Assembly: GCA_013373445.1 (NCBI GenBank)
Contig: JABXHV010000091.1
Coordinates: 1 to 51,673 of the forward strand
Direction: 5' to 3'
DNA from: Paracoccaceae bacterium
GTDB lineage: Bacteria; Pseudomonadota; Alphaproteobacteria; Rhizobiales; Stappiaceae
DNA: 51,673 nucleotides
Shown: positions 886 to 18,925 of the stretch, one piece after another
Numbering within the stretch: the stretch's first letter is position 1
How the letters are laid out: every line of letters starts with the position of its first letter
Translations under genes and position numbers: made by a program
The notes under the pieces: model-generated
Seen by the model: only the letters and a program-made list of their open reading frames with translations
Told to the model about the DNA's origin: nothing
Databases searched by the model: none

Positions 886-901
886 TCACTGAAACATTGC
901 G

Positions 902-928
902 GGGAGGCTGCTTTTCAGGTGGCCTCCC
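902..928 (+). terminator. Stem-loop between urtA and urtB (partial terminator or 3' stabiliser)
   Basis: The arms GGGAGGC (902-908) and GCCTCCC (922-928) pair perfectly around a 13-base loop, 17 bases after the urtA stop. The following bases (TATCTTCATCTT) are only moderately T-rich. Such hairpins between a binding-protein gene and its permease genes commonly reduce downstream expression or protect the upstream message. That role is inferred. The rest of the 238-base gap up to urtB shows no gene. Confidence 0.5.
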
Positions 929-1123
929 TATCTTCATCTTGACCCTGGTTTGATCATCAAAAGGGCAGGATGGGTTTCTCAAGCGGCACCCGTTTGCCGG
1001 GTCTGCTTGAAAAGCCCTTCTTGAAAGATGGGCCGCGAATTCTGGGCAGGGGATGGCTTTCTGGCGATCCTTTGCACAGGTCCTCGGAATGAGGGCGGTG
1101 TAAACGTCGAAAGCCGGTGGTTC

Positions 1124-2743: not shown

Positions 2744-3909
2744 TGACTTCATTTCTCTTCCGCACCCTCGATGCCAAGGCTGGTGTTTTTATCGCCATAC
2801 TGCTGGCTGTCATCGTCGCCGTACCCTGCTTCAATCTGCTGGTGCCTGAAACAAGCTCCTTCCATCTGCCGACCTATGCGGTCACCTTGATGGGCAAGTA
2901 TATGACCTATGCGCTGCTGGCACTGTCGGTTGATCTTGTCTGGGGTTTTTGCGGGATCCTGTCGCTCGGTCATGGAGCGTTCTTCGCGCTGGGCGGCTAC
3001 GCCATGGGTATGTACCTGATGCGCCAGATCGGAACCCGGGGCGTTTACGGTGACCCGATTCTTCCTGATTTCATGGTGTTCCTGAACTGGAAAGAACTAC
3101 CCTGGTACTGGTACGGCTTCGACATGTTCTGGTTTGCAGCCATCATGGTGATGCTGGTGCCCGGTGTTCTGGCGTTCGTCTTCGGCTGGTTTGCCTTCCG
3201 CTCACGAGTGACGGGTGTTTATCTGTCGATCATCACCCAGGCTTTGACCTACGCTCTTCTCTTGGCCTTTTTCCGAAATGACATGGGTTTTGGCGGTAAC
3301 AATGGCCTGACAGATTTTAAGGACATTCTTGGCTTTGATGTTCAGGCCGATACGACCCGGGCCGGACTGTTCGCGACTTCCGGACTTGCGGTGCTGATCT
3401 GTTTCCTGATCTGTCGTGCGATCACCAAATCCAAGTTGGGAAAGGTGCTCGTCGCCGTGCGGGATGCGGAAAGCCGCACACGCTTCCTGGGCTACCGGGT
3501 CGAGCATTACAAACTCTTCGTGTGGACGATTTCTGCCATGATGGCAGGTATTGCGGGCGCGCTATACGTGCCGCAGGTGGGGATTATCAATCCGGGTGAA
3601 TTTGCGCCGGCCAATTCGATTGAAACGGTGATCTGGGTTGCCGTCGGAGGGCGCGGGACACTGGTTGGGGCGGTTATCGGTGCGATTTTGGTCAACTTTG
3701 CCAAGACCTGGTTCACTGCTGCACTGCCGGATCTCTGGTTGTTTGCCCTTGGCGGCCTCTTCGTCGCCGTGACCCTGTTCCTGCCGAAGGGGATTATTGG
3801 CATCGCTGGCGATTTGATGAAGAAACGCAAGTCGACGCCGTCCAAAGAGACAAACGACACGTCAGGTCCCTCGGCGACGAAGACCCCTGACCCAGAGCCT
3901 GCGGAGTAA
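2740..3909 (+). CDS. urtC: Urea ABC transporter permease UrtC
   Basis: Second permease of the urea importer, LivM type, 389 residues with about ten hydrophobic segments. The family motif LSLGHGAFFALGGYAMGMY is present, as are the EAA-like loop near AVRDAESRTRFLGYRVEHYK and the conserved VAVGGRGTLVGAVIGA stretch. The start ATG overlaps the urtB stop; a second ATG follows directly at 2743. The cytoplasmic C-terminal tail (from about residue 360) is charged, low in complexity and rich in Lys, Ser, Thr and Pro, and is probably disordered. The next gene, urtD, begins four bases after the stop. Confidence 0.93.
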   Translation: MMTSFLFRTLDAKAGVFIAILLAVIVAVPCFNLLVPETSSFHLPTYAVTLMGKYMTYALLALSVDLVWGFCGILSLGHGAFFALGGYAMGMYLMRQIGTRGVYGDPILPDFMVFLNWKELPWYWYGFDMFWFAAIMVMLVPGVLAFVFGWFAFRSRVTGVYLSIITQALTYALLLAFFRNDMGFGGNNGLTDFKDILGFDVQADTTRAGLFATSGLAVLICFLICRAITKSKLGKVLVAVRDAESRTRFLGYRVEHYKLFVWTISAMMAGIAGALYVPQVGIINPGEFAPANSIETVIWVAVGGRGTLVGAVIGAILVNFAKTWFTAALPDLWLFALGGLFVAVTLFLPKGIIGIAGDLMKKRKSTPSKETNDTSGPSATKTPDPEPAE

Positions 3910-3913
3910 AGCG

Positions 3914-4660
3914 ATGTCCAGACCGAACAGTCTTCTTTATCTCGATGGCGTTTCCGTCTCCTTTGATGGGTTCAAGGCGCTCAACGATCTCTCGATGGTT
4001 ATCGGCCCGGGTGAAATGCGGGCGATCATTGGCCCAAACGGTGCAGGCAAGACAACCATGATGGATGTCATCACCGGGAAAACCAAACCGGATACGGGTG
4101 AGGTTTACTTTAACGGCGTTGTGGATCTGACAGGCGAGGATGAAGCCTCGATTGCCGAACTTGGAATTGGCCGTAAATTTCAAAAGCCGACGGTTTTTGA
4201 AAGCCATACGATTTGGGACAATCTGGAACTCGCGCTGAAGGGCCCACGTGGACCATTCGCGACATTGTTCCATAGGCTGTCTGCGGAAGAAGAAGCACGT
4301 ATCAACGAGCTTTTGAAAGTCATTCGTCTGGGTGAGAAGGCTCACGAGTTGGCCGAGAACCTCTCCCACGGACAAAAGCAATGGCTAGAGATTGGCATGC
4401 TCCTGGCACAGGATCCCAAGCTTTTGCTGGTCGATGAGCCCGCTGCAGGGATGACTGATGCCGAGACCGCCGAGACAGCGGAGCTCCTGAAGGACATTGC
4501 CAAGACTCATGCGGTCGTCGTTGTCGAACATGACATGACGTTCATTCGTGCCCTGGGGGTCAAGGTGACCTGTCTTGCGGAAGGTTCCGTGCTGGCAGAA
4601 GGATCTCTGGACTATGTTTCTGCGAACGAGCGTGTCGTTGAAGTTTATTTGGGTCGGTGA
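3914..4660 (+). CDS. urtD: Urea ABC transporter ATP-binding protein UrtD
   Basis: One of the two ATPases that power urea uptake, LivG type, 248 residues. It has the Walker A motif GPNGAGKTT, an ABC signature in the variant form LSHGQKQWLEIGM, the Walker B LLLVDEPAAGMT and the H-loop VVEHD. The LSHGQKQ signature and AAGM after Walker B are typical of UrtD rather than of branched-chain amino acid LivG. A GGAG ribosome-binding site lies about nine bases before the ATG. It should pair with UrtE on the cytoplasmic face of UrtBC. Confidence 0.93.
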   Translation: MSRPNSLLYLDGVSVSFDGFKALNDLSMVIGPGEMRAIIGPNGAGKTTMMDVITGKTKPDTGEVYFNGVVDLTGEDEASIAELGIGRKFQKPTVFESHTIWDNLELALKGPRGPFATLFHRLSAEEEARINELLKVIRLGEKAHELAENLSHGQKQWLEIGMLLAQDPKLLLVDEPAAGMTDAETAETAELLKDIAKTHAVVVVEHDMTFIRALGVKVTCLAEGSVLAEGSLDYVSANERVVEVYLGR

Positions 4661-4668
4661 GGAAAACC

Positions 4669-5364
4669 ATGCTGAATGTTGAAAACATCGATCTCTACTA
4701 TGGTGCTGCCCAGGCGTTGAAGGGTGTTTCCTTTAACGCCGAAGTTGGCAAGGTAACCTGTCTTATGGGGCGCAACGGCGTTGGAAAGACCTCCTCGCTG
4801 CGCGCTGTCGTTGGTCAACACGGGATCCGTTCCGGCAAGATCATTTGGGATGGCGAAGACATTTCGAAGCTGCCGTCTCATGCGCGGGCACGGCGCGGCA
4901 TTGCGATCGTTCCCCAGGGCCGCGAAATCTTTCCGCTTTTGAGCGTGAAGGAAAATCTGGAGACAGGCTATGCCTGCGTTCCGCGCAAGGAACGGCATTT
5001 GCCAGAAACCATCTTTGAACTGTTCCCGGTGCTGAAATCCATGTTGTCCCGGCGTGGCGGCGATCTTTCTGGTGGTCAACAGCAGCAGCTGGCGATTGCC
5101 CGGGCTCTTGTGACGCGTCCAAAATTGCTGGTGCTTGATGAACCGACCGAAGGTATCCAGCCTTCAATCATCAAGGATATCGGACGGGCGATTGAGTGGC
5201 TGCGGGAGCAGGGGGACATGGCCATTGTCCTCGTTGAACAGTATTTCGAGTTTGCACGGGACCTTGCCGATGATTTCGCTGTCCTGGATCGCGGCGAAAT
5301 CGTCATGTCAGGCACGCGCGCCGAACTCAATGAGGTCGAAGTTCGCAAGCATCTGACAGTATAA
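4669..5364 (+). CDS. urtE: Urea ABC transporter ATP-binding protein UrtE
   Basis: Second ATPase of the urea importer, LivF type, 231 residues. The sequence begins MLNVENIDLYYGAAQALKGV, the usual UrtE start, so I prefer the ATG at 4669 with GAGG upstream over the GTG at 4657 that overlaps the urtD stop. Walker A is GRNGVGKTS, the signature is LSGGQQQQLAIARAL, and Walker B (LLVLDEPTEGIQPSI) contains the TEGIQPSII stretch characteristic of UrtE. This is the last urt gene. No urease structural or accessory genes follow; the next gene is an unrelated AsmA-family protein. Confidence 0.93.
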   Translation: MLNVENIDLYYGAAQALKGVSFNAEVGKVTCLMGRNGVGKTSSLRAVVGQHGIRSGKIIWDGEDISKLPSHARARRGIAIVPQGREIFPLLSVKENLETGYACVPRKERHLPETIFELFPVLKSMLSRRGGDLSGGQQQQLAIARALVTRPKLLVLDEPTEGIQPSIIKDIGRAIEWLREQGDMAIVLVEQYFEFARDLADDFAVLDRGEIVMSGTRAELNEVEVRKHLTV

Positions 5365-5445: not shown

Positions 5446-8400
5446 ATGCGCCGCATTCTGATCGGATTGGGAATTCTTGTTGCAACTCTGGTAGCCGTGG
5501 CTGCCGTTGTTCCGCTGTTCTTGCCGAAAGACACGATCAAACAACAGGTTATCAAGCAGGTTGAGAGTGCTGCCGGGTGGCGGCTGCGCCTTGATGGTGA
5601 TGTAAGCTTGTCGTTGGTACCAAGCTTTTCCCTGATAGCGGACAATATCGGCCTGTCCGGTGAGGCCGGAGCAGACGGTATCGAGTTTGCCAAGGCGCAG
5701 CGCATCGAGTTTGGGCTGGCATGGGCCGGGTTGTTCGGTGGTGAGATCCGCGTTACCGAAATTACACTTGTTGAGCCGAATATCTTTCTCGAAATTGCCA
5801 CGACGGGTACGACCAGTTGGGCGCCGCGTCGCGATCTATCCCCTGCCGAGGAAGCCGCTGAAATTCTGTCCGGTGAAGTCGTTGGAAGCGATCCTGCAAG
5901 CAGCGTTGAAACAGTAGCAGATTCGGCACCTGCAAACGCTTCCGACAGCTTTGGCTATCTCGAGCGGATCGGCATCGACGAACTGACGATTGTGTCTGGC
6001 CAGCTTGTTTACGATGACAAGACATCAGATCTTCGTCAGGAAATTTCAGATCTTGATCTGACATTGTCGGCACCGGATGTTCGCGAAGACATTACGTTGG
6101 ACAGCAGCTTCCTGTGGCAAGGCAGGCCATCTGGTGTAAGCGGAAAAATCACCGATTTGATTGCACTCTTGCGCGGTGAAAGCGCGCCGGTCGATATTAC
6201 CCTAACGCTTGAAGACGCTTCGATTGGTGTCGCAGGGCAAGTCGGTCTGGAGCCGCTTAAGCTTGACGTTGCCGTCACGGGGACAGGACCCTCTGTCGCC
6301 GCTCTTGCTGCTGTTGCAGAGACCGAGCTTGCTGTTGATCCGGGTGCCTTTTCAGTCTTTGGTCAGGTTAACGGTGATGAGACCGCAGTGTCTGTTTCCA
6401 ACCTGTCGCTCTCAGTGGGAGATGTCGGGGTTGATGGCCAAATGGCGGCCAGCCTTACCGGTGATGCTCCCAACTTGAACGGTCAGTTGGTGCTCCGCGA
6501 CAGTTCCCTTGAAAATCTGCTCAAGCTCGCCGGGCAATCACTGCCAGCGAAGGGAACCTTGTCAGGCAATATGACTTTTGCTGCAGTTGGCAAGACCGCT
6601 GATGAGATTGTGTCCAGCCTGAAACTGCAAGGTCGTGCGGCTATTCGTGATGGCGAAATTTCAGAGCTCGGCTTGGCCGATGCGGTTGGCGGCGATGCAT
6701 CAGCGGATGTGATCTCGGGAATCGCGATGGAAGCGGAGATCAACGGTCTTGATCAGAAGGCAACACTGCGCGGCGGATTGTCCTGGCGCGGTGAAGCTTT
6801 CACAGTCTCAGGGTCCGCTGTTCCTGCACCATTGATCGATGGCAAGGCAGCTCCGGTCGCGATTAAGGTCAAAGGCAATCGGGTCACCGCCGGATTTGAC
6901 GGAACAGCCTCTGCTGCACGAGGCGTGGATGGCGCCGTGACCGTCGAGACTGCAAACCTTCGCCAGCTTTTGGCCTGGCTCGGGCAGCCTGTCGAGGCCG
7001 GATCTGGTTTGAAGAACTTCAGTGCTTCCGGGATTTTTGCGGCCTCTGAAACAGCAGTTTCCTTTGAGGAGACACGTTTTACGCTTGATCAAACATCCGG
7101 TTCTGCCGACGGAAGTATTTTGTTGGGCGATAAACCAACGGTCAAAGCTAATCTGGTTCTGTCTTCTCTGGTTCTCGATCCATATCTGAGTACTGGCTCG
7201 AAGGCTTCGGCCGCAGCGTCCGGGTCTTCCGGCGGATCATCTTCCGGTGGCTCTTCCGGGGCTTCAGGTGGCGCGCCTGTCGCTCCCTCGGCATCGGGAT
7301 GGGACAGTGCCCCAATTGATTTTGCTGGCTTGAATGCGGTCAATCTGGATGTGTCGATCAAAACCAGTGAGATCCGGTGGGACAAGCTGAAAATCGATCA
7401 GAGTGCGTTGAGTGCCAAAATCCAGGATGGGATGCTGACAGCCAATCTGACCGATCTGAAGCTTTATGAAGGATCGGGCTCTGGTGCGGTTACACTGAAC
7501 GGCAAGGCGGAAACACCTGAGCTGACAGCGCAATTCTCTCTGGGAGGCGCACAGGCGCTCCCCTTGTTGAAAGATGCTGCAGATTTTGACTGGATCGCGG
7601 GTACGAGCCGGATTTCCTTTGATGTTACCTCGCGCGGCGGTTCTCAAAAGGCCCTGGTGGATGCGTTGAATGGTGCAGCCGAATTCAGCTTTGCAGATGG
7701 AGCGATACGCGGCATCAACATCCCGAAAATGGTGCGCAGTTTGTCAGTGCAAACACTTCTGGGTTGGCAGGACAGCAGCAATGAGACCACGGACTTCAGT
7801 TCGCTGTCTGCTTCCTTTGCGATTGCAAACGGCATTGCCACAAACTCTGATCTGTCCCTCGTCGGCCCGTTGGTCCGGATGAGCGGTAGCGGCACGACAA
7901 ACATGCCAGCTCAGACGTTGGATTGGCGTGTCGAGCCGAAAATTGTTGCCAGCCTGTCGGCCGAAGAACAAAGCGATGGCGAGCTGGCTGGTCTTGGCGT
8001 GCCGATCATTGCCAAGGGCTCATGGGCACAGCCTAGAATTTACCCGGATATCACAGGTATCCTGCAGAACCCACAAGCTGCCTACAAACAGCTTGAACAG
8101 CTTGGCGGCGGGCTCTTTTCTATCCTGAAAGACGGCCAGGGCGGACAGGGCAATCTGGCGGAACAGGCCACCGACATTCTCAACAAGTTGACCGGTAAAA
8201 AAGGCAAACAGGAAGAAGCCAATCCTGAAGCCGATGGGAATGCCAATCCCGAGAACGGTGCTGCGGATAACGGTGAGATCGATCTTCAAAAGGTTATCGA
8301 GGGTGATGTTGATGACAAACAGATCTTGGAATCGGTCGAAAAGGGCCTCGGCTTGCCGTCCGGTCTGCTTGGAAACTTCGGGATCGGCAAGAAAAACTAG
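5446..8400 (+). CDS. AsmA family protein
   Basis: A 984-residue envelope protein with one N-terminal membrane anchor (residues about 5-26) and a large periplasmic beta-rich body. The start of the body (about 35-200) and the C-terminal region (about 660-870) resemble the AsmA domains of proteins proposed to act in outer-membrane biogenesis or phospholipid transport between membranes. Residues about 586-615 form a flexible Ser/Gly-rich linker made of near-repeats of GSSGG. The C-terminal 100 residues are polar, rich in Gly, Asn and Glu. A GGGG ribosome-binding site precedes the ATG. It is not part of the urea operon in function; the 81-base gap to urtE shows no clear terminator, so read-through is possible. 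Substrate unknown. Confidence 0.85.
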   Translation: MRRILIGLGILVATLVAVAAVVPLFLPKDTIKQQVIKQVESAAGWRLRLDGDVSLSLVPSFSLIADNIGLSGEAGADGIEFAKAQRIEFGLAWAGLFGGEIRVTEITLVEPNIFLEIATTGTTSWAPRRDLSPAEEAAEILSGEVVGSDPASSVETVADSAPANASDSFGYLERIGIDELTIVSGQLVYDDKTSDLRQEISDLDLTLSAPDVREDITLDSSFLWQGRPSGVSGKITDLIALLRGESAPVDITLTLEDASIGVAGQVGLEPLKLDVAVTGTGPSVAALAAVAETELAVDPGAFSVFGQVNGDETAVSVSNLSLSVGDVGVDGQMAASLTGDAPNLNGQLVLRDSSLENLLKLAGQSLPAKGTLSGNMTFAAVGKTADEIVSSLKLQGRAAIRDGEISELGLADAVGGDASADVISGIAMEAEINGLDQKATLRGGLSWRGEAFTVSGSAVPAPLIDGKAAPVAIKVKGNRVTAGFDGTASAARGVDGAVTVETANLRQLLAWLGQPVEAGSGLKNFSASGIFAASETAVSFEETRFTLDQTSGSADGSILLGDKPTVKANLVLSSLVLDPYLSTGSKASAAASGSSGGSSSGGSSGASGGAPVAPSASGWDSAPIDFAGLNAVNLDVSIKTSEIRWDKLKIDQSALSAKIQDGMLTANLTDLKLYEGSGSGAVTLNGKAETPELTAQFSLGGAQALPLLKDAADFDWIAGTSRISFDVTSRGGSQKALVDALNGAAEFSFADGAIRGINIPKMVRSLSVQTLLGWQDSSNETTDFSSLSASFAIANGIATNSDLSLVGPLVRMSGSGTTNMPAQTLDWRVEPKIVASLSAEEQSDGELAGLGVPIIAKGSWAQPRIYPDITGILQNPQAAYKQLEQLGGGLFSILKDGQGGQGNLAEQATDILNKLTGKKGKQEEANPEADGNANPENGAADNGEIDLQKVIEGDVDDKQILESVEKGLGLPSGLLGNFGIGKKN

Positions 8401-8416
8401 GCGCCAGTGGCGCCTA
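8398..8416. other. Perfect palindrome formed by two converging stop codons
   Basis: The asmA-family gene stops at TAG 8398-8400 and phnN, on the other strand, stops at TAG 8416-8414. The whole interval is an 8-bp inverted repeat, TAGGCGCC and GGCGCCTA, around the loop AGT. It could act as a bidirectional 3' hairpin for both messages, but it lacks a T-tract on either side. Confidence 0.6.
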
Positions 8417-9034
8417 TAGATCCAGGGCGCTGCGGATTCTCCGCACGCCGTCCTCGATCGTGCCGGTGTTCTCAATCCGGATGATTGTCTCATAGCCCGC
8501 TACATCGAGATCAACGCTTTTCAGCCGGGTCTCGATTTCTGCTCGGGTCTCGCGGCCTCGCGCGAGCAGGCGTTCAACAAGCACCTCCGTCGGGGCCGTA
8601 ATCAGCAGCACTGCAACGGTTTGGTACTTGTCGTAGGCCTTTCCCAAGGCTCGCCTTGAGCCATTGGCTATGACCGTCTCACCGTTGCGGATGGCATCGT
8701 CGTAGACTGCCGGAATGATGTAACCTAATCCGTGGGCTTCCCAACACAGCGCAACGTCATTGCGGCGTACGTGGTCATCATATTCTTCCTGCGTGATGCT
8801 GTCGTGATCTTCGGACTTATGATCTGACACACGGGTTACGCTCCGACGCGCGAAATGGATGTCGTCGGACCCGCTCAGCTCGTGGCGCAGGGCGGCCAAC
8901 AAGGTGTCCTTGCCAGCACCGCTCGGTCCCACGACGAGGATCAATCGTCCAGGGCCGAGTTTCTGCGTGGCTTTTGACGGGTGATCAGGCAACGCGGTGA
9001 CCTTCACGCCAGACGCCGCGGATGACAGGAACAT
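8414..9034 (-). CDS. phnN: Ribose 1,5-bisphosphate phosphokinase PhnN
   Basis: PhnN phosphorylates ribose 1,5-bisphosphate to PRPP, the last step that returns the ribosyl part of C-P lyase products to metabolism. The protein (up to 206 residues) has a guanylate-kinase-like P-loop GPSGAGKD at residues 36-43 and the typical ARRSVTR segment after it. It is the last gene of the phn operon. With the ATG at 9034 it overlaps phnM by 50 bases. A GTG at 9007 and a TTG at 8992, nearer the phnM stop, are plausible alternative starts because family members usually begin only a few residues before the P-loop strand. Confidence 0.88.
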   Translation of the reverse strand: MFLSSAASGVKVTALPDHPSKATQKLGPGRLILVVGPSGAGKDTLLAALRHELSGSDDIHFARRSVTRVSDHKSEDHDSITQEEYDDHVRRNDVALCWEAHGLGYIIPAVYDDAIRNGETVIANGSRRALGKAYDKYQTVAVLLITAPTEVLVERLLARGRETRAEIETRLKSVDLDVAGYETIIRIENTGTIEDGVRRIRSALDL

Positions 9035-10127
9035 TGTCGATCATTCGAACCTGCACCAGATCGGCGCGGCGGCTCGTCTCAATTGCGCCGCGGTCGTTCA
9101 GGCCTACTGCAGCAGCTGGTGTGCTCGTAACCTTGGCGATCGCTTGCGGGATCGATATCGCTTCGACTTCGCTCGCCAGCTGGAAAGCTGCCTGGACCAG
9201 CGAGATCGGCACGTAGTCTGATGATAGAACATCCAGGTAACCGGCTTCTGCGAGCTCTCTTGCCGAAACGTTGCCGGAGTGCGAGCCACCACGCACCACG
9301 TTCGGAGCGCCCATCAGGACTGCCATGCCGGATTCATGGGATGCTCTGGCAGCTTCCAGCGTCGTCGGGAATTCGGCGATTTTTGTTTTCAGAGAAATTG
9401 CTTCGTCGACATGGCCGGCCGTTGCGTCGTCGTGGCTGGCGATAACAATGCTCTTGTCCTGGGCAATGGCAGACAGGCTCTTGCGGTTGTCGGGCGCAAT
9501 GTTGCCGGCCCGTGACTGGCGGCTTTCGATGAAAGCGGCCATCTGGTCATCATTGAAGCCCTTTTTCGATTTGTAATACAGAATGTAGCTGTCGAGAGAG
9601 ACGAACTGGCGCTGACCCGGGGTGTGGTCCATCAGCGACATCAGGCGGACGCGCGAGTCATTCTTGAAGAAGTTGAACCCTTCCATGACATCTGGCGCGG
9701 ACACCTCACAGCGCAGGTGGATCAGGTGATCGGCGCGCAAACGACCTTCTGAGACGCCTGTCTCGATGGCATCTGCAAGCGTGCGCATGTCAGCGGCTGT
9801 CAGTTCAGCGTCTTCTTCCATGCCGATGCGCAAGGCGTCAAACACAGTGGTGATGCCGGAACAAGCGATCTGGGCGTCATGGGCCTGAACGGCGGAGACA
9901 GGGTTCCACTTTACGCCCGGGCGCGGGGCATAGTGACATTCCAGGTGATCGGTGTGCAGTTCGACCAGGCCCGGGATCAGGTAATCGCCGTCGCAATCAT
10001 GTCCGTTGGTGCTCGTGTTGCTTCCGATCTCGACAATCTTGCCGTCAGAGGTATGAAGCGAGCCTTCGATGACTTCGTCCGGCAGGACCAGCTTGGCATT
10101 TCTGAACGTGGTTTCAACTGCGCTCAT
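8985..10127 (-). CDS. phnM: Alpha-D-ribose 1-methylphosphonate 5-triphosphate diphosphatase PhnM
   Basis: PhnM removes pyrophosphate from the ribosyl-triphosphate phosphonate made by PhnGHIL, giving the 5-phosphate that PhnJ cleaves. The protein has 380 residues and an amidohydrolase fold. Metal-ligand candidates are in PGLVELHTDHLECH (His58, Asp60, His61), further histidines in IASHDDATAGHVDE, and an Asp in the SSDYVP stretch near the C-terminus. The substitution of HTDH for the usual HxH is normal for PhnM. It starts eight bases after the DUF1045 gene and overlaps phnN, so it is within the operon. Confidence 0.93.
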   Translation of the reverse strand: MSAVETTFRNAKLVLPDEVIEGSLHTSDGKIVEIGSNTSTNGHDCDGDYLIPGLVELHTDHLECHYAPRPGVKWNPVSAVQAHDAQIACSGITTVFDALRIGMEEDAELTAADMRTLADAIETGVSEGRLRADHLIHLRCEVSAPDVMEGFNFFKNDSRVRLMSLMDHTPGQRQFVSLDSYILYYKSKKGFNDDQMAAFIESRQSRAGNIAPDNRKSLSAIAQDKSIVIASHDDATAGHVDEAISLKTKIAEFPTTLEAARASHESGMAVLMGAPNVVRGGSHSGNVSARELAEAGYLDVLSSDYVPISLVQAAFQLASEVEAISIPQAIAKVTSTPAAAVGLNDRGAIETSRRADLVQVRMIDNVPVIRGVWREGHRVA

Positions 10128-10134
10128 GATGTCC

Positions 10135-10887
10135 TCAATTGGAAACGGAATGATCGGCAGCCTTGGCGCTGTCCGAAGAGGTTGACCCGGTTTTGGCAGA
10201 GCCGGTCAAGGTGAAGATGGTGTGCACTTGAAAGGGTGCGCCTTTTTGAGCTTCCGTATAAAGGCCGAAGCTGTTCACGGAAGCGGGACGATCGGCGACC
10301 TTTGCAAAGAAATCTGCGGCAGCTTTCTGAAGTTTGACTCTGATGGTCTCGTTCTCAAGCTTGTTGCTCAGCGTCATATGGAACCGGAATTCGTCAAACA
10401 CGTAAGGATAGCCCCAGGTCTGAACATACTCGTCCTGTTTTGGCGTGAGTTGGGCCTGGCGGCGGCGTTCCAGATCCGCTGATGAAAGCGGTGCGCGCAG
10501 GTGCTCGAAGTGACGGACGCAGTCATTGGCAAATGCGTTCAGCGCCGCATCAGGTTTGCTCGGGGTGAGCGCGAGGAACTTGCCCAGCGCGTTGACGCTC
10601 AGGCCTGTGCTTTCAAATGGCGCGGTGCTGGCAGCGAAGGTTGCACATGCGGATACCAGATCTGCTTCCGACATTCCGTCTTTGAGGTGAAACGGCGCGC
10701 GCAGGGTTCCGTGGAAGCCGTAGCGGCGTGGATCGGTTGTGAGAAGCGCAAATTCATCAGCGCTTACACCGTCGATGGCAGGTTGCTGAAGCGTGTTGCC
10801 GGTAAACGGATCACGTCCAAGCCATTCGGAACCAAGTTGCATCAAGAGCGCATCTTTAGGTGCAGCAAAATAAATGGCGTAACGCAT
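10135..10887 (-). CDS. DUF1045 protein, 2H-phosphoesterase-like, of the phosphonate operon
   Basis: A 250-residue cytoplasmic protein matching the putative phosphonate metabolism protein family (DUF1045, TIGR03223). I chose the ATG at 10887 (MRYAIYFAAP), where family members start, over an upstream TTG. Two HxT motifs are visible, His59-Gly-Thr61 (YGFHGTLRAPF) and His170-Met-Thr172 (FRFHMTLSNKL). This spacing is the signature of 2H phosphoesterases, which act on cyclic or linear phosphodiesters. No phnP (the metal-dependent cyclic ribose phosphate phosphodiesterase) is in the operon, so this protein may open the 1,2-cyclic phosphate left by PhnJ. That role is inference. It lies between the acyltransferase gene and phnM. 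Confidence 0.85.
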   Translation of the reverse strand: MRYAIYFAAPKDALLMQLGSEWLGRDPFTGNTLQQPAIDGVSADEFALLTTDPRRYGFHGTLRAPFHLKDGMSEADLVSACATFAASTAPFESTGLSVNALGKFLALTPSKPDAALNAFANDCVRHFEHLRAPLSSADLERRRQAQLTPKQDEYVQTWGYPYVFDEFRFHMTLSNKLENETIRVKLQKAAADFFAKVADRPASVNSFGLYTEAQKGAPFQVHTIFTLTGSAKTGSTSSDSAKAADHSVSN

Positions 10888-10925: not shown

Positions 10926-11588
10926 TTAAGCAGAGACTGTGACGGTTGAATGACGTTCTGAGTAGGAAAACTCGGAATCGAAGCGTTTGCAGAAGTCATC
11001 TATATCATTGGATTGGAAGTCTGCCATATGTTCGAACAATTTTGCTTCCGGCCAGTCCCACCATGCAATGCGGTTGAGACTGTCTGATATATGTTTCGGA
11101 AAGCGCGGACGGATCGGCTTTGCGGGCACGCCGCCGACAATTGTATGGGCCTCAACATTGCGGGCGACCACGGCTCCGGCAGCCAGAACCGCGCCGTTTC
11201 CAACGGTGACACCTGGAACAATGGTCACACCATGACCGATCCAGACATCGTGGCCGATTGTGACCCTGGATTTCCTTCGGTTGTCGAAGAAGTCTGTGTC
11301 ACGGCATTGGCCATCTTCGTAATACTCAGGAACATAAGTGAACCGATGCTGTGAGGGACGTTCCATTGGGTGGTTCGGGGCGCCGATGCGCACGTGCGCA
11401 GCGACCGCGCAGAATTTTCCGATCACCGTGTCGGCAACATTGCAGTATTCGCCGAGATAGCTGTAGTCGCCCAGAGTGGTGTAGCTGACCTTGGTGTGCT
11501 CGAGAATTTCGCAGCGCCGACCAATGTCCGCTTCGCGCAGACTGGCGGTCTCATGAACGACGGTTTGCGCTATTTTCGGTTTGGTCAT
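10926..11588 (-). CDS. Hexapeptide-repeat acyltransferase of the phosphonate operon
   Basis: A 220-residue left-handed beta-helix acyltransferase of the phosphonate-linked hexapeptide family (TIGR03308). The start is the ATG at 11588 (MTKPKIAQ), ten bases after phnL; the frame is open much further upstream, but only as antisense to phnL. Hexapeptide turns run from about residue 22 to 165 (for example [16 protein letters not shown] and [16 protein letters not shown]). They end in [20 protein letters not shown], the usual coenzyme-A-binding end of chloramphenicol/virginiamycin-type acetyltransferases. The substrate is unknown. An aminoalkylphosphonate or a toxic pathway intermediate is plausible because E. 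coli has an unrelated N-acetyltransferase, PhnO, in the same setting. Confidence 0.87.
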
Positions 11589-11598
11589 GCCGGGATCC

Positions 11599-12306
11599 TC
11601 AAGCCGCCTGTTTGAAGTTTGTGACATCGACGATGCGGTCAGCAATGCGCTCACGCACATCAAGATCATGCAAGATGCCGAGCATTGCGACGCCTGATGC
11701 TTTCTTTTCCTCGACCAACTCCACAACAACGGCACGATTGGCGGCGTCGAGTGAAGCTGTTGGTTCATCGAGCAGCAGCATCGGGTAGTTGGTAATGAAG
11801 CCCCGGGCAATGTTGACCCGCTGCTGTTCACCGCCGGAGAAGGTTGCTGGCGGCAACGTCCAAAGACGGTTTGGAACGTTGAGCCGGGTGAGAAGATCGC
11901 GTGCCTTATTTACAGCGGTTTTCTCGTCGGCTCCCTGGGCGATCAACGGTTCGGCGACCACATCTTCAGCCGACACTCTCGGTATGACCCGCAAGAACTG
12001 GCTAACGTAACCGATTGTGTTGCTGCGCAGGGAAAGCATGCGACGCGGCTCAGCCTTGGCGATGTCCAGAACAGTTTCGCCATTCTCACCGGTAGCGATG
12101 AGGATTTGCCCCTCGTCGCAGCGATAGTTGCCGTAGATCATTTTCAGGATCGAGCTTTTGCCCGCACCGGATGGACCGCCGAGGACAACACATTCACCGC
12201 TGAAGACTTCCAGTTCCACATTGGTGACGACCGGCAGCGTCAATCCTCCCTGTAGATGCATTTGGAAAGATTTGCCGACAGACTTGAGAGACAGACGTTT
12301 GGTCAT
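11599..12306 (-). CDS. phnL: C-P lyase complex protein PhnL
   Basis: PhnL is an ABC-type ATPase-like subunit needed with PhnG, H and I to attach the phosphonate to ribose triphosphate. The protein has 235 residues. It has Walker [10 protein letters not shown] at 43-51, the signature [14 protein letters not shown], and Walker [13 protein letters not shown]. The N-terminal [14 protein letters not shown]-type region and the loop [11 protein letters not shown] are characteristic of PhnL. No transmembrane partner is present, as expected for a non-transport role. It lies nine bases after phnK. Confidence 0.93.
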
Positions 12307-12315
12307 AATTGAACC

Positions 12316-13104
12316 TCAGACCTGCAGGATGGAAGAGACGAGAAGCTGGGTGTATGGTTCGCGCGGATCGTCGAGGACCTGATCAGTGAGACCGGTTTCG
12401 ATGACATTGCCGTGCCGCATGACCACGATGCGATGAGAGAGCAAGCGGGCGACAGCCAGATCGTGGGTGACGATAATGACAGCGAGGCCGAGGTCAGCCA
12501 CCAGTCTGCGCAACATGTCTAGCAGCCGGGCCTGAACCGAGACATCCAGGCCGCCGGTTGGCTCATCCATGAAAATCAAACGCGGATGAGTGACCAGATT
12601 TCTGGCGATCTGCAAACGTTGACGCATACCGCCGGAAAAGGCGCGAGGGTTGTCATCAATGCGATCTGCAGCAATCTCGACGCGTTCGAGCCAGTCGGTC
12701 GCGGTGTCACGGATCTGGCCATAGTGACGCTGCCCGACCGCCATCAGGCGTTCGCCAACGTTTGCCCCTGCGGAAACGGCAAGACGCAAGCCGTCTGCGG
12801 GGTTCTGGTGCACAAAGCCCCAGTCGGTCCGCATCAAGAGGCGGCGCTCGGCTTCTGTCAGCTTGTACAGGTTACGGAAAACACCATCGCGCATGCGGTA
12901 TTCGATCATGCCGCTAGTTGGCTCTAGGCGTGTCGACAGGCAGTTCAAAAGAGTGGATTTGCCCGATCCGCTTTCGCCGACTACGGCCAGTACTTCGCCT
13001 GGCCAAAGCTCGAAGTCGACATTCTGACAGCCAATGCGATTGCCATAGAGCTTGGTGATCTCGCTCACGCGTAGGAGCGGTTCATCGTTCATCATGTCGC
13101 TCAT
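12316..13104 (-). CDS. phnK: C-P lyase complex protein PhnK
   Basis: PhnK is an ABC-ATPase that docks on the PhnGHIJ core of the C-P lyase. It has 262 residues, Walker A VVGESGSGKS (41-50), the signature FSGGMRQRLQIARNL, and Walker B LIFMDEPTGGLDVSVQARLLD, resembling dipeptide-transporter ATPases from which the family derives. The DWGFVHQNPADGLR stretch is typical of PhnK. The ATG overlaps the phnJ stop by four bases, so the two are translationally coupled. Confidence 0.93.
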   Translation of the reverse strand: MSDMMNDEPLLRVSEITKLYGNRIGCQNVDFELWPGEVLAVVGESGSGKSTLLNCLSTRLEPTSGMIEYRMRDGVFRNLYKLTEAERRLLMRTDWGFVHQNPADGLRLAVSAGANVGERLMAVGQRHYGQIRDTATDWLERVEIAADRIDDNPRAFSGGMRQRLQIARNLVTHPRLIFMDEPTGGLDVSVQARLLDMLRRLVADLGLAVIIVTHDLAVARLLSHRIVVMRHGNVIETGLTDQVLDDPREPYTQLLVSSILQV

Positions 13105-14051
13105 GACGCGTCCTGTCCTGCGGTTGATGTGGTGAGGCTCACCGCAGCGGGATCTGCTGCCATGTCGCCAAGGTGACCTGCTTCGCGGCGCTCTTCGCAG
13201 TAGTCGGTGTCGGAGCAGACGAACATCCGCCCACCCTTGTCGTCAAGAATGACTTCATCCAGATAGACATTTGCTGCGCCACAGAGCCCGCAAGGCCTTT
13301 CGAACTTCTGGACTTCAAATGGGTGATCATCAAAGTCGAGACTTTTGACCTTGGTGAAGGGCGGGATGGCGTAGATCCGTTTTTCGCGGCCTGCCCCATA
13401 AAGCTGCAAGGCAGCCATTTCGTCGATCTTCGGGTTGTCGAATTTCGGTGTGGGAGACGGATCCATCACATAGCGGTCGTTGACCTCCACCGGATAGGCA
13501 TAGGTCGTGGCTATGCGTCCGTTGCGGGCAATGTCTTCATACAGTTTCACATGCATTAGCCCGTATTCCTTGAGGGCGTGCATGGTCCGGGTTTCGGTTT
13601 CCCGCGGCTCCAGAAAGCGCAATGGCTCCGGAATTGGAACCTGAAAGACGATGATCTGGTCTTCGCGCAGGCTTGCTTCCGGAATTCTGTGGCGGGTCTG
13701 AATGATGCTGGCATCCGCTGTCGCGGTTGTGGTCTTAACGCCGGCTGTCTTTTCGAAGAAGCTGCGAATGGAGACTGCGTTTGTTGTGTCGTCGGACCCT
13801 TGGTCGATGACTTTCAAGGTGTCTTCCTGGCCGAGGATGGCTGCAGTCACCTGAACCCCGCCAGTGCCCCATCCGTAGGGCATAGGCATTTCGCGCGAGG
13901 CAAATGGAACCTGGTAGCCCGGGATGGCAATGCCCTTGAGAATTGCACGACGGATCATGCGTTTGGTCTGTTCATCCAGATAGGCGAAATTGTATTGACT
14001 TTCTGTCGACTGGTCCGGGGCGGCCTCGACGGTGCGAACGCTAGAAGTCAT
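13101..14051 (-). CDS. phnJ: Alpha-D-ribose 1-methylphosphonate 5-phosphate C-P lyase PhnJ
   Basis: PhnJ is the radical-SAM enzyme that breaks the carbon-phosphorus bond, releasing the alkane and ribose 1,2-cyclic phosphate 5-phosphate. The 316-residue protein carries the diagnostic cluster motif C-x2-C-x21-C-x5-C exactly, at Cys254, Cys257, Cys279 and Cys285, so it should bind a [4Fe-4S] cluster and be active. The conserved GYQVPFASREMPMPYGWGTG region is near the N-terminus. It overlaps both neighbours, phnI and phnK, by four bases. It is the marker gene for phosphonate degradation by this organism. Confidence 0.96.
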   Translation of the reverse strand: MTSSVRTVEAAPDQSTESQYNFAYLDEQTKRMIRRAILKGIAIPGYQVPFASREMPMPYGWGTGGVQVTAAILGQEDTLKVIDQGSDDTTNAVSIRSFFEKTAGVKTTTATADASIIQTRHRIPEASLREDQIIVFQVPIPEPLRFLEPRETETRTMHALKEYGLMHVKLYEDIARNGRIATTYAYPVEVNDRYVMDPSPTPKFDNPKIDEMAALQLYGAGREKRIYAIPPFTKVKSLDFDDHPFEVQKFERPCGLCGAANVYLDEVILDDKGGRMFVCSDTDYCEERREAGHLGDMAADPAAVSLTTSTAGQDAS

Positions 14052-15160
14052 TGTGCAGCCTCCTGGATTTCTTCTTCACCGGCGTGGGCATTGAACCATT
14101 CTTCGCGAAGGGTGCGGATCAGCTCAAGTTCGGCCTGGAAGTCGACGTAATGCGGCAGCTTCAGGTGTTCGACGAAGCCAGTCGCTTGAATGTTGTCTGA
14201 GTGAGACAGCACAAATTCTGTATCCTGCACGGGTGCGGTACATTCTTCGCCGAATTCTTCCCAGCGCAGGGCGCGATCAACCAGTGACATTGCCATGGCC
14301 TTGCGTTCTGACTGACCGAAGACCAGGCCGTAGCCGCGGGTGAATTTGGGAGATGATTTGGCCGACCCGGCGAACTGATTGACCATCTGGCATTCGGTCA
14401 ATTTGATTGTTCCCAGAGTTACCGCAAAGCCGAGCTCTTCAGCGAAGAATTCAACTTCTACGGCACCAAAGCGGATCTCGCCGGTAAAAGGATGGTTACG
14501 GCCATAGCCGCGCTGGGAGGAATACCCGAGGGCAAGCAGAAAGCCCTCATCTCCCCGGGCCAGGTTTTGAAGGCGCAGGTCGCGGTCTGCAGGAAAGCCA
14601 AGCGGTTCGCGGGTCAGATCGCCAACGACCGCGTCGTCTTCGGGCAGAACGTCGGCGTCCATAAGGCCTTCATCCCCCAAGAGCTCGGTGACGCGCGGAA
14701 CGGGTCCGGTTTCCGGCTCGCTCATGCTGACTTCTTCCAGATCGACTTCTCCGTCTGCCGCCAGTTTGAAATCGAGCAAACGATGCGTGTAGTCAAATGT
14801 CGGACCAAGTAGCTGGCCACCTGGAAGGTCTTTGTAAGTTGCGGAAATCCTGCGCTCGATCAGCATTTTGGCCGTGTCGAGGGGCAGAGAATAGCCAAAA
14901 CGCGGCAGGGTCGTGCGATAGGCACGAATGAGGAAAGCTGCTTCAATCAGGTCGCCGCGCGCCTGTTTGATGGCCAGGGCGGCAAGGCTTTCATCGTAGA
15001 GCGAGCCTTCCGCCATGACGCGTGCCACGGAGATCGACAATTGCTCGGCAATCTGGTCGATGCCGAGGGCAGGCACATCCGTGTCGCCGCGCCTGCGTTT
15101 TGCGAGCAGCTTGTGTGCATTGCGGATGGCCTTTTCGCCGCCCTTGACTGCAACATACAT
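14048..15160 (-). CDS. phnI: C-P lyase core subunit PhnI
   Basis: PhnI supplies the nucleosidase activity that, within the PhnGHI(L) complex, joins methylphosphonate to ribose triphosphate with displacement of adenine. The protein has 370 residues and starts MYVAVKGGEKAIRNAH, the usual PhnI N-terminus. The conserved C-terminal part (QATGFVEHLKLPHYVDFQ) is intact. It starts three bases after phnH and overlaps phnJ by four, so it sits in a tightly coupled operon. Confidence 0.95.
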   Translation of the reverse strand: MYVAVKGGEKAIRNAHKLLAKRRRGDTDVPALGIDQIAEQLSISVARVMAEGSLYDESLAALAIKQARGDLIEAAFLIRAYRTTLPRFGYSLPLDTAKMLIERRISATYKDLPGGQLLGPTFDYTHRLLDFKLAADGEVDLEEVSMSEPETGPVPRVTELLGDEGLMDADVLPEDDAVVGDLTREPLGFPADRDLRLQNLARGDEGFLLALGYSSQRGYGRNHPFTGEIRFGAVEVEFFAEELGFAVTLGTIKLTECQMVNQFAGSAKSSPKFTRGYGLVFGQSERKAMAMSLVDRALRWEEFGEECTAPVQDTEFVLSHSDNIQATGFVEHLKLPHYVDFQAELELIRTLREEWFNAHAGEEEIQEAAQ

Positions 15161-15163
15161 GTC

Positions 15164-15796
15164 TTAAGACTCCGCAATCGTGATTTTGGTTGATCGTGGC
15201 AGCGCCGCGATCTCATCATCGCTGGCAAAGACGACATCAACACCACAGGGAAATGACGTGTTGTTGAATTGCATCTGCTGCCAGAAACCACCTGAAACCG
15301 GATCGGTGCGGAAGCCCTGTGCACTTCGGATGCCGGGACCGGTCAGGGAGACGGATGGTCCCGCGGAGAAGTTCTGTCCGGCGAGTATCAGCGTCGTTGA
15401 TGTGTCCGGGTATTCTGCTGAACCCTGAGCGAAAGTGCTCAGATCAGGCAGGTGTCTCGGGGATGTCAGCAAGGCAAAGGTGGCCTTGGCCGCGTCGCTG
15501 GTGACCGGTGCACCTGTGTGAAAACGCAGATAACCAAGTGCATCGCTGCTTTCCATCAGATCAGGGTCGAGCCATATGGGCGTATCATAATCGAAGAGTG
15601 TGAGGGCAATTGCCGCGGCCAGGGGCGTCAACGGGGCCGGAACATCAAGCGGTGCGCGCGTGAAACGCTGCGTCTGGCCGGGACGGGCCATGGCGTTCAT
15701 GATCGCGCGGAAACAGCTTTGGGAATCAACAACAGGCGTGTCAAAGCCGGGCGCGAGGGCGCTGGAGCTGTTTTGGGTAAAGTTTTGTGCCGTCAT
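15164..15796 (-). CDS. phnH: C-P lyase core subunit PhnH
   Basis: PhnH is a structural subunit of the PhnGHIJ core, related in fold to PLP-dependent transferases but without the cofactor. The protein has 210 residues, typical for the family. The N-terminal region FDTPVVDSQSCFRAIMNAMA-type motif and the C-terminal FPCGVDVVFASDDEIAALPR stretch match PhnH. Its ATG overlaps the phnG stop by one base. Confidence 0.93.
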   Translation of the reverse strand: MTAQNFTQNSSSALAPGFDTPVVDSQSCFRAIMNAMARPGQTQRFTRAPLDVPAPLTPLAAAIALTLFDYDTPIWLDPDLMESSDALGYLRFHTGAPVTSDAAKATFALLTSPRHLPDLSTFAQGSAEYPDTSTTLILAGQNFSAGPSVSLTGPGIRSAQGFRTDPVSGGFWQQMQFNNTSFPCGVDVVFASDDEIAALPRSTKITIAES

Positions 15797-16284
15797 CAGT
15801 CTTCTCCGCGAACCATTGTGAAGAAATCGACTTTGGTGGCAGCTGTTTCGGCGCGCACATTTTGTCGTTCTTCTTCCTGGGCCGCTGCGAGCGGTGCCAG
15901 AACGGTGGTTTCGATTGTTTCGTGGTGAGCAGGGTTTTGCCAGAGAGCATCGAAGATCGCGGCCTGAAGCGCTTTCTTCTTGTCGCGCCCCATAATGTAG
16001 GAACTGCCTGCTTCCCCTGTCTTCAGCCGAATGACGCAGCGGGTGACGCTGACTTCGCCAAGGTTGAAGGGCGCGCCGGTGCCGCCCATGCGGCCGCGTG
16101 CCATCACAAGTCCGATTTCCGGTGCGCGAACGATGTCGTGAGCAGGGATGTCTGCATAGTTTTCAAAGGCCCGGGTGAGGGTCTCGACAGGGGCAGCGGC
16201 AAGGATCGCCATGCTTTTTTGCCGATTTGCGATGGCCTCGTCACTTGGCATGTTCAAATCCTGGTATGGCTGTTCTTTCGACAT
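15796..16284 (-). CDS. phnG: C-P lyase core subunit PhnG
   Basis: First gene of the phn operon, encoding the small core subunit PhnG that assembles with PhnH, I and J. With the ATG at 16284 (MSKEQPYQD) it has 162 residues, and AGAAGG lies about 12 bases upstream. Farther upstream in-frame ATGs would run into the operator, and a later ATG at 16251 is also possible. The conserved core (RQKSMAILAAAP near the start and the ARGRMGGTGAPFNLGEV stretch) is typical of PhnG. Transcription probably starts just downstream of or within the palindrome at 16341-16366. Confidence 0.92.
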   Translation of the reverse strand: MSKEQPYQDLNMPSDEAIANRQKSMAILAAAPVETLTRAFENYADIPAHDIVRAPEIGLVMARGRMGGTGAPFNLGEVSVTRCVIRLKTGEAGSSYIMGRDKKKALQAAIFDALWQNPAHHETIETTVLAPLAAAQEEERQNVRAETAATKVDFFTMVRGED

Positions 16285-16340
16285 GTGATGTGCCTTCTGG
16301 GTCAGTCCCGAAATCAACATATGTGTTGAGCTACAGCATA

Positions 16341-16366
16341 AATTCATCTATTTGTATAGACGAATT
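16341..16366. promoter_or_regulatory. Probable PhnF operator in the phnG/phnF divergent region
   Basis: A 26-base near-perfect palindrome: the left arm AATTC-A-TCTAT and right arm ATAGA-C-GAATT flank TTGT, with ten of eleven arm positions pairing. The right-hand part, TTGTATAGACGA (16352-16363), fits the nGTnTAnACn operator type known for HutC-family GntR regulators and is close to the mycobacterial PhnF site TGGTATAGACCA. It lies 57 bases upstream of phnG and 42 upstream of phnF, so one bound dimer could control both promoters. Confidence 0.75.
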
Positions 16367-16407
16367 GTTCGATTGACTTTGTGCTACCGGGGTTTGATGA
16401 CAAAGGC

Positions 16408-17142
16408 ATGACAAAGCAGGTGAAGATCGATCGAGGCACCGGTGTTTCCGTGTGGCGCCAGATTTCCGAGTGGCTGCGGGCCGAAATCGCGTCCGGTGCA
16501 TTCGTTGCTGGCGAGCGGTTGCCCACGGAGACTGATATTGCGGAACGGTTTTCCGTCAACCGGCACACTGTGCGCAGAGCCATTGCTGCACTGACGGCTG
16601 ATGGCATTTTGCGTGCCGACCAGGGCCGGGGAACTTTTGTTGCGAGCACGCCAATCAACTACCCGATCCGCAAGCGAACCCGATTTTCGGAAATCATTTC
16701 AAGTCAGGATCGCACGCCAAGCGGGCGGACCATCGGTTCGGGTCAGGATGAGGCTGATGCGCTGTTGGCGCTCCGTCTTGATGTTCCACCTGGAACACAG
16801 CTGCTGCGTATTGAGACTTTGCGCGTCGTCGACGGCGCTCCGGTTCTGGTGGCGACCAGTTGGTTCGAGGCCGAAAGGTTTCGCGACGCCGTTGGTGTCT
16901 ATGAGGCGACCCACTCCTTCACAGAGGTTTTGAAGAGCGGCGGGGTGCATGACTATGAGCGCAAGGAATCCCGTATCTCGGCTGAGCTTGTCGAACCACA
17001 GGATGCTCTGCATCTGGGCATTGCGTCGGGCCAGCCGGTTCTGGTGGTCGAGAGCGTCAACGTCGATCAGGACGGACGGCCCGTCCAATATACCAGCACC
17101 CGCATGGTCGCGGAGCGTATGCAGTTGGTCATCGAGAGCTGA
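16408..17142 (+). CDS. phnF: GntR/HutC-family transcriptional regulator PhnF
   Basis: Probable repressor of the phosphonate operon, 244 residues. Residues about 10-75 are a GntR winged helix with the turn LPTETDIAERFSVNRHTVRRAI. Residues about 95-240 are the UTRA effector-binding domain, shared with HutC and PhnF. The ATG at 16408 (MTKQVKID) is preferred over a GTG at 16381 that would put extra residues before the winged helix. It is divergent from phnG across the palindrome, the standard layout of a local regulator. Its stop codon directly abuts the stop of the converging CYTH-CHAD gene (TGA and TCA form TGATCA). Confidence 0.9.
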   Translation: MTKQVKIDRGTGVSVWRQISEWLRAEIASGAFVAGERLPTETDIAERFSVNRHTVRRAIAALTADGILRADQGRGTFVASTPINYPIRKRTRFSEIISSQDRTPSGRTIGSGQDEADALLALRLDVPPGTQLLRIETLRVVDGAPVLVATSWFEAERFRDAVGVYEATHSFTEVLKSGGVHDYERKESRISAELVEPQDALHLGIASGQPVLVVESVNVDQDGRPVQYTSTRMVAERMQLVIES

Positions 17143-18684: not shown

Positions 18685-18925
18685 ACCCGGTTGCTCCAAC
18701 ACTCGGCTTCGACGTTGCTGTCTGATAGCCGAAAAACCTTAACTGGAAGCACCTTAGCCGTGAACGACTGTCATATTCAAATCGAACGCAATGGGTGGGG
18801 TGCTGTATTGCAGCTGGAGTTGGTGATCGCGAAGGCGCATTGCGCCAATGCGCAGCAAGAACAGTTCTTGTCGCGTTGCAAAAGTCGGATCGGCAATCGG
18901 GAGAACCCTTTTGCTTTGCGAGTAG

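Follow-up and report, generated by a model that had tools for sequence, protein, structure and literature searches.

How is the step between PhnJ and PhnN carried out in a C-P lyase operon that has no phnP? The question is raised by contig JABXHV010000091.1 of a Paracoccaceae bacterium (assembly GCA_013373445.1), of which we analyzed a stretch of 51,673 nucleotides, referred to here as the window. The original prediction held that a DUF1045 protein may replace PhnP, the phosphodiesterase that opens ribose 1,2-cyclic phosphate 5-phosphate before PhnN can act. Profile matches confirmed that the operon contains phnGHIJKL, phnM, and phnN, but no phnP; the DUF1045 gene lies directly upstream of phnM, as had been stated, with 7 bases between them. 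On the minus strand, the gene order is phnG-phnH-phnI-phnJ-phnK-phnL-hexapeptide transferase-DUF1045-phnM-phnN, with phnF divergent. The features are as follows:

8414..9034, minus strand: phnN, ribose 1,5-bisphosphokinase, which uses the predicted product (TIGR02322 181.8 bits, cut-off 156)
8985..10127, minus strand: phnM, alpha-D-ribose 1-methylphosphonate 5-triphosphate diphosphatase (NF011983 598 bits, cut-off 486)
10135..10887, minus strand: DUF1045 / TIGR03223 2H phosphoesterase, predicted 5-phosphoribosyl 1,2-cyclic phosphate phosphodiesterase (PF06299 4.9e-58; TIGR03223 273 bits)
10372..10380, minus strand: codons of the second motif, His170-Met-Thr172 (counted from the translation)
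10705..10713, minus strand: codons of the first motif, His59-Gly-Thr61 (counted from the translation)
10926..11831, minus strand: phn hexapeptide-repeat transferase (TIGR03308 257 bits, cut-off 201.65)
11599..12306, minus strand: phnL (TIGR02324 329.5 bits, cut-off 256.3)
12316..13104, minus strand: phnK (TIGR02323 400.9 bits, cut-off 302.85)
13101..14051, minus strand: phnJ, subunit that cleaves the C-P bond and forms the cyclic phosphate (PF06007 1.5e-146)
14048..15160, minus strand: phnI (PF05861 4.1e-163)
15164..15796, minus strand: phnH (PF05845 1.8e-63; TIGR03292 180.7 bits, cut-off 91.5)
15796..16347, minus strand: phnG (PF06754 2e-54)
16381..17142, plus strand: phnF, GntR-type regulator, divergent (TIGR02325 281.4 bits, cut-off 156.8)

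The true start of the hexapeptide transferase probably lies inside the frame 10926..11831, given a profile match at residues 88-284. Around the operon, the window encodes an ABC transporter set with a branched-chain-type permease (1-5364, plus strand; PF02653) that by eye resembles a urea transporter, an AsmA-family protein (5446-8400, plus strand; PF05170), and a long protein that by eye resembles CYTH plus CHAD (17143-18702, minus strand). Translation of 10135-10887, for which the original prediction named no strand, gave an uninterrupted ATG-initiated frame of 250 codons plus stop on the minus strand and stops in the same frame on the plus strand; a wrong frame or strand was therefore ruled out for the DUF1045 gene. 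The two HxT motifs are positioned exactly as claimed, with HGT at residues 59-61 and HMT at residues 170-172.

The window protein matches PF06299 (DUF1045) with 196 bits (E 4.9e-58, cut-off 24.3) and the superfamily profile PF13563 (2_5_RNA_ligase2) with 30.4 bits (E 4.7e-7, cut-off 27). It also matches TIGR03223, named 'putative phosphonate metabolism protein', with 273 bits against a cut-off of 248.95, residues 1-227 falling on positions 1-226 of 228. The profile search gave no TIGR03307 (PhnP) or Lactamase_B match at E ≤ 0.001. Judged by these profiles, the protein is not a PhnP and is a candidate equivalent of it. Its nearest named relatives are from Roseibium and Labrenzia (56-61% identity; best 80 of 591 similarity matches), by which the window's class is judged to be Alphaproteobacteria, and we found nothing that sets this copy apart from other DUF1045 / TIGR03223 members, of which it is an ordinary one.

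An alignment was made of 76 of the 78 DUF1045 matches in a sample of 398 genomes, two fragments from genome G194 having been dropped before alignment and tree construction. His59, His170, Arg2, and Arg131 are each kept in 76/76 full-length relatives, Thr61 in 73/76, and Thr172 in 72/76, with Ser172 in one more; the motifs are not a chance occurrence. Four rows thus deviate at the threonines, namely one operon copy with Ser172 and three solitary copies with V61 and P172. The latter form one clade and so count as one event; they are solitary DUF1045 paralogues with HGV and HMP motifs, both motif threonines being lost (L109:9058, L110:8787, and L112:8725), and their genomes also carry an operon copy with intact motifs.

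An AlphaFold2 model built with 38 sequences (mean pLDDT 93.1, pTM 0.86) gave as top PDB matches YjcG (Z 15.1), the Arabidopsis cyclic phosphodiesterase 1jh6 (Z 14.1; 169 residues aligned, 3.3 Å), and E. coli LigT (Z 13.2). The fit of archaeal 2'-5' RNA ligase-like proteins to the model is about as good as that of the Arabidopsis enzyme. Among the listed matches with Z > 10, YjcG, CPDase, and LigT lead and most are 2H proteins, a status that we presume for several of them. In sequence, the closest solved structure is remote, the structure sequence search giving no match better than E 0.22. As modelled, the DUF1045 fold is that of a 2H phosphoesterase, and this predicted fold by itself does not choose among YjcG, the Arabidopsis cyclic phosphodiesterase, and LigT.

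A phnP elsewhere in the genome had been named as counter-evidence to the prediction. The genome comprises 3.64 Mb in 201 contigs and is rated 100% complete; in the whole of it, no protein scored over the cut-off of the PhnP profile TIGR03307, the top match reaching 51 bits against the 272 needed. A true phnP elsewhere was hence rejected, and the search yielded only a distant paralogue: a metallo-beta-lactamase encoded after metG and tatD (names read by eye from the sequences), whose 51-bit match extends over the full PhnP profile. This paralogue keeps the HxHxDH motif, scores 238 bits against NF038231 versus 55 bits against the PhnP profile, and is homologous to the Brucella protein BrabA.11339.a (PDB 3py5/3md7; 2e-91). 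According to the excerpted text of PMC3169410, PhnP is the closest structural homologue of the Brucella protein, which binds AMP or GMP in a site with a Mn2+ pair and has the same metG-tatD neighborhood; nucleotide hydrolysis was suggested by its authors. All 80 genomes tested from the window's class, of which 58 have PhnJ and 22 lack it, encode this paralogue, which is therefore apparently a housekeeping protein.

Co-occurrence of DUF1045 and PhnP was scored in two evenly drawn and overlapping samples. In the 398 genomes of the window's phylum, both proteins were sought throughout; in 229 genomes of the class to which G246 belongs, they were sought only in the seven PhnJ genomes, which were searched together with three others. 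DUF1045 was counted at E ≤ 1e-10, with three fragment rows of G194 excluded, and PhnP at the curated cut-off. Among the 398 genomes, PhnJ occurs in 83, DUF1045 in 69 (41 over the TIGR03223 cut-off), and PhnP over cut-off in 19, all 19 of which have PhnJ. The 83 PhnJ genomes divide into 62 with DUF1045, 19 with PhnP, none with both, and two with neither. Relaxing the PhnP threshold to E ≤ 1e-25 gave 22 genomes, the extra three (G063, G350, and G360) being without a PhnJ match. Six of the seven PhnJ genomes in the 229-genome sample are new; among these six, PhnP over cut-off is present in three, DUF1045 alone (242 bits, under cut-off) in one, and both proteins in two. In total, the 89 PhnJ genomes comprise 63 with DUF1045 only, 22 with PhnP over cut-off only, two with both, and two with neither. 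In a set of 14 control genomes, E. coli alone was positive for PhnJ and for PhnP, and the sole DUF1045 match, from Deinobacterium chartae, was under cut-off in a genome without PhnJ. Operons that always carry both genes had also been named as counter-evidence: 87/89 PhnJ genomes do not carry both, and in the other two PhnP is degenerate. Wherever DUF1045 occurs in this set, PhnP is thus either absent over cut-off or degenerate.

These counts are not a set of independent observations. In a tree built by a quick method from one PhnJ of each of the 89 genomes, a single change suffices for the DUF1045 and PhnP states; the 63/22 pattern is therefore near a single historical split, and the Fisher values for co-occurrence, though very small, are not independent evidence. 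Replication of the mutual exclusion is weak, and a shared history of two operon types could account for it. The two genomes with neither DUF1045 nor PhnP over cut-off (G374 and G377, of an enterobacterial-type family) carry phnGHIJKLMN operons (L115 and L116), G377 having a 30-bit PhnP-profile match only; some genomes thus perform the step by other means or lack it. PhnJ is absent in 7/69 DUF1045 genomes, five of which hold a solitary copy only, with intact motifs, and hence the DUF1045 family may have another use too. In 6/62 PhnJ genomes with DUF1045, the only copy is away from phn genes.

The gene neighborhoods mostly place DUF1045 next to phnM or phnN. We defined an operon as at least two of phnG/H/I/J within 12 kb and detected neighbors by using the window's proteins as tblastn queries, a search that is weak for distant phnN, phnG, and phnH; counts of phnM include phnM-like genes. 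Of the 78 DUF1045 places in the 398-genome sample, 50 are in phn operons, 12 have no phn genes but phnM and/or phnN alongside, and 16 are elsewhere. Seven of the 12 belong to one family (L087-L093) and have a DUF1045-phnM-phnN unit apart from a phnGHIJKL set located elsewhere in the genome. Among named loci retrieved by similarity (the best 80 of 591), the stretch examined contained phnM in 74, phnN in 66, and phnJ in 51. Pooling gave 158 DUF1045 places in two partly overlapping sets, in which at least three contigs coincide by length (L245 with G280:C54, L237 with G265:C67, and L264 with G594:C128); L264 and L269 therefore represent a single case. Within 600 bases of DUF1045, the first phn gene detected is phnM or phnM-like at 124/158 places, phnN at 33/158, and either at 135/158; at the other 23/158, no query-set gene was detected within that distance. 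Loci such as L137 show the order phnM-DUF1045-phnN-phnL.

The 16 copies away from phn genes are not one clade and need nine changes on the tree. Among their shared neighbor groups, the largest after DUF1045 itself cover six and five of the 16 loci, and most of the 25 largest groups are confined to four loci from related genomes (L104, L109, L110, and L112); the frames compared were chosen by length only and some are surely not genes. Several further arrangements were observed. In one family (f3; L125-L130, L135, L136, and L142), DUF1045 goes together with a hexapeptide transferase and a second phnM-like gene that is divergent, the adjoining main phn operon having its own phnM and phnN. Genome G071 has extra C-P lyase clusters (L121 and L122), and in each of them a separate DUF1045 adjoins a phnN match, a weak one in L122. 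The DUF1045 copies in the extra C-P lyase clusters of G194 (L168) are broken and its other copy (L146) is intact. An Allorhizobium DUF1045 stretch (L213:10001-10696) contains an internal stop, reflecting a broken gene or a frame error.

If DUF1045 replaces PhnP, then it and PhnN would be consecutive enzymes, and their occurrence in one chain would be expected. One of the 158 places, in a betaproteobacterial metagenome-assembled genome (MAG), has this arrangement: a single open frame of 434 codons (L259:4476-5780, plus strand) that encodes DUF1045 followed by PhnN. The N-terminal part matches TIGR03223 at residues 3-229 (249.4 bits, barely over cut-off) and the C-terminal part matches the PhnN profile TIGR02322 at residues 244-423 (154.4 bits, slightly below the cut-off of 156).

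The strongest new point of our analysis is a degenerate PhnP beside DUF1045. The two genomes with both proteins, G476 and G594, belong to one genus; their DUF1045 proteins score over cut-off and their PhnP homologues score 141.9 and 117.3 bits, under cut-off. The operon reads phnGHIJKLM-DUF1045-phnN-PhnP homologue, whole in G476 and from phnI onward in G594, where the contig ends:

L276:4271-5005 and L277:4945-5679, minus strand: degenerate PhnP homologues of G476/G594, beside DUF1045 and phnN

We compared eight PhnP metal-site and catalytic positions, i.e., four of the HxHxDH motif and the equivalents of E. coli His143, Asp164, His200, and His222, whose numbering and site roles we take to be as in the E. 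coli enzyme. All eight are kept in 22/22 aligned PhnPs over cut-off; the G476 and G594 homologues have lost seven of the eight, with the last histidine alone kept. No Pfam domain was found in them at E ≤ 0.001. The PhnP profile still spans both homologues end to end, the frame is open in both species, and dN/dS for this one genome pair (NG86) is 0.119/0.244, or ~0.49; this value is the highest of seven genes and below 1, those of the neighbors being 0.35 for DUF1045, 0.41 for phnN, 0.38 for phnL, 0.20 for phnK, 0.18 for phnM, and 0.12 for phnJ. With an open frame and dN/dS below 1, the gene is seemingly not freely decaying. The observation comes from a single genus, represented by two species, of which one is a MAG (87% complete, 5% contamination); a search for more relatives found G476 and G594 to be the only members of their order in the genome set searched.

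Other readings of the locus differ in how they account for these observations. The metG-tatD-linked metallo-beta-lactamase might do the missing step, with DUF1045 being an accessory in the operon. It is the best PhnP-like match of the genome, keeps HxHxDH, and has a solved relative with PhnP as closest structural homologue and with AMP/GMP at a Mn2+ pair (PMC3169410), but its presence in 22 genomes without PhnJ looks housekeeping, it fits NF038231 far better than PhnP, and metG and tatD as neighbors suggest a different task. This explanation would also leave the travel of DUF1045 with phnM and phnN unexplained. We regard it as unlikely. Descent alone could account for the co-occurrence pattern if genomes inherited either a DUF1045-type or a PhnP-type operon with no functional exchange, given that one change on the PhnJ tree is enough for both states. 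We consider such a purely historical account very unlikely, as it predicts neither the DUF1045-PhnN fusion nor the loss of the PhnP site precisely where both proteins occur, and E. coli requires the step (PMC3463581).

Slightly less probable again is that DUF1045 acts on another cyclic phosphate or a 2',5'-linked substrate in the manner of LigT/ThpR, its phn link being regulatory or protective. The proximity of phnM or phnN at 135/158 places speaks against this, and both the PhnN fusion and the PhnP site loss beside DUF1045 suggest a role after PhnJ and before PhnN. In favor of it are the about equal fits of LigT, YjcG, and archaeal 2'-5' RNA ligase-like proteins to the model, the 16/78 copies that lie away from phn genes in more than one clade, and the five of seven PhnJ-less DUF1045 genomes that hold solitary copies only. 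LigT/ThpR and YjcG share with DUF1045 the fold and the PF13563-type superfamily profile; LigT differs in having RNA- or nucleotide-type substrates, and we know of no link of LigT/ThpR or YjcG to phosphonate operons.

Replacement of PhnP by DUF1045 is a hypothesis already in print (Hove-Jensen 2014, as cited; Martinez 2013). DUF1045 has been proposed as a phosphoribosyl cyclic phosphodiesterase (PMC8235418, citing Hove-Jensen 2014), as has RcsF (PMC3840354; PMC10574752). In the excerpted count of 54 operons in PMC10574752, 27 have phnP and 16 without phnP carry 'rcsF', a 2H gene. The gene order phnM, rcsF, phnNL (PMC5649143) agrees with the order seen here in loci such as L137, and 'rcsF' is therefore probably DUF1045. 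A Rhodobacteraceae fosmid cluster described as having rcsF and no phnP restored methylphosphonate growth of E. coli BW16787, a ΔphnHIJKLMNOP strain, these fosmids averaging 40 kb and carrying other genes (PMC3840354; Martinez 2013). In E. coli phnP strains, phosphonate yields no phosphorus that the cell can use, and ribosyl 1,2-cyclic phosphate is excreted (PMC3463581); the rcsF fosmid should therefore supply the step. A 'Putative C-P lyase DUF1045' row stands beside PhnI, PhnJ, PhnL, and PhnM in a Phaeobacter P-stress table (PMC10132767), and 'phnP', by name, is reported in a Bradyrhizobium C-P lyase cluster (PMC10708946). Our literature search, which covered few subscription journals, returned no direct DUF1045 assay, no degenerate PhnP, and no DUF1045-PhnN fusion among the matches listed; in two of the papers returned, the fusion mentioned involves other proteins.

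The closest known systems compare with DUF1045 as follows. E. coli PhnP (TIGR03307) has the same predicted reaction and pathway position; it has a metallo-beta-lactamase fold with Mn2+/Ni2+ preference (PMC3169410), in contrast to the unrelated 2H fold of DUF1045. The DUF1045 / TIGR03223 proteins of other C-P lyase operons are like the window copy in family score and in their place beside phnM. The Arabidopsis/yeast cyclic phosphodiesterase (1jh6, 1fsi) is of the same 2H family and fold (Z 14.1), but has ~11% identity and an ADP-ribose substrate. As excerpted in PMC5283653, this eukaryotic enzyme, linked to tRNA splicing by the titles cited there, converts Appr>p to ADP-ribose 1''-phosphate, i.e., a ribose 1,2-cyclic phosphate is opened and the phosphate stays on C1. 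By analogy, an enzyme that opens the same ring with the same outcome would match what feeding PhnN needs.

Taken together, a genome without PhnP over cut-off, 87/89 PhnJ genomes without both genes, the fusion, and the fold match lend support to the original prediction that DUF1045 may replace PhnP. On the basis of sequence and the structural model, we consider it quite likely that DUF1045 is a 2H phosphodiesterase that replaces PhnP and, probably without metal, opens 5-phosphoribosyl 1,2-cyclic phosphate (PRcP) to ribosyl 1,5-bisphosphate for PhnN. His59 and His170 would act as an acid/base pair, and Thr61, Thr172, and a conserved arginine such as Arg131 would hold the phosphate with no metal involved. 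Water would open the ring at the 2-oxygen to give alpha-D-ribosyl 1,5-bisphosphate, which PhnN would then phosphorylate to PRPP. We infer the substrate, the bond broken, the metal independence, and the single-residue roles; the basis found here consists of the predicted 2H fold, the conserved motifs, the operon position, the lack of PhnP over cut-off, the fusion, and the PhnP site loss. New among these are the DUF1045-PhnN fusion, the degenerate PhnP, and the match in fold to an enzyme that hydrolyzes a ribose 1,2-cyclic phosphate, along with the cautionary tree. A wider proposal, to which we give somewhat less than even credence, is that a metal-free DUF1045 phosphoribosyl cyclic phosphodiesterase displaced PhnP and that, in one gammaproteobacterial genus, PhnP survives as a constrained pseudoenzyme without a metal site, perhaps serving as a scaffold that hands product on to PhnN, much as DUF1045 and PhnN became one chain in another lineage.

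C-P lyase acting on methylphosphonate is a source of methane in oxic water, and it also liberates phosphate from synthetic phosphonates. If DUF1045 does replace PhnP, many C-P lyase genomes (63/89 sampled, all of the window's phylum and many of its class) would use a different enzyme at this step, and an annotation of 'missing phnP' would mislead for DUF1045 genomes. DUF1045, a named unknown family, would thereby gain a function.
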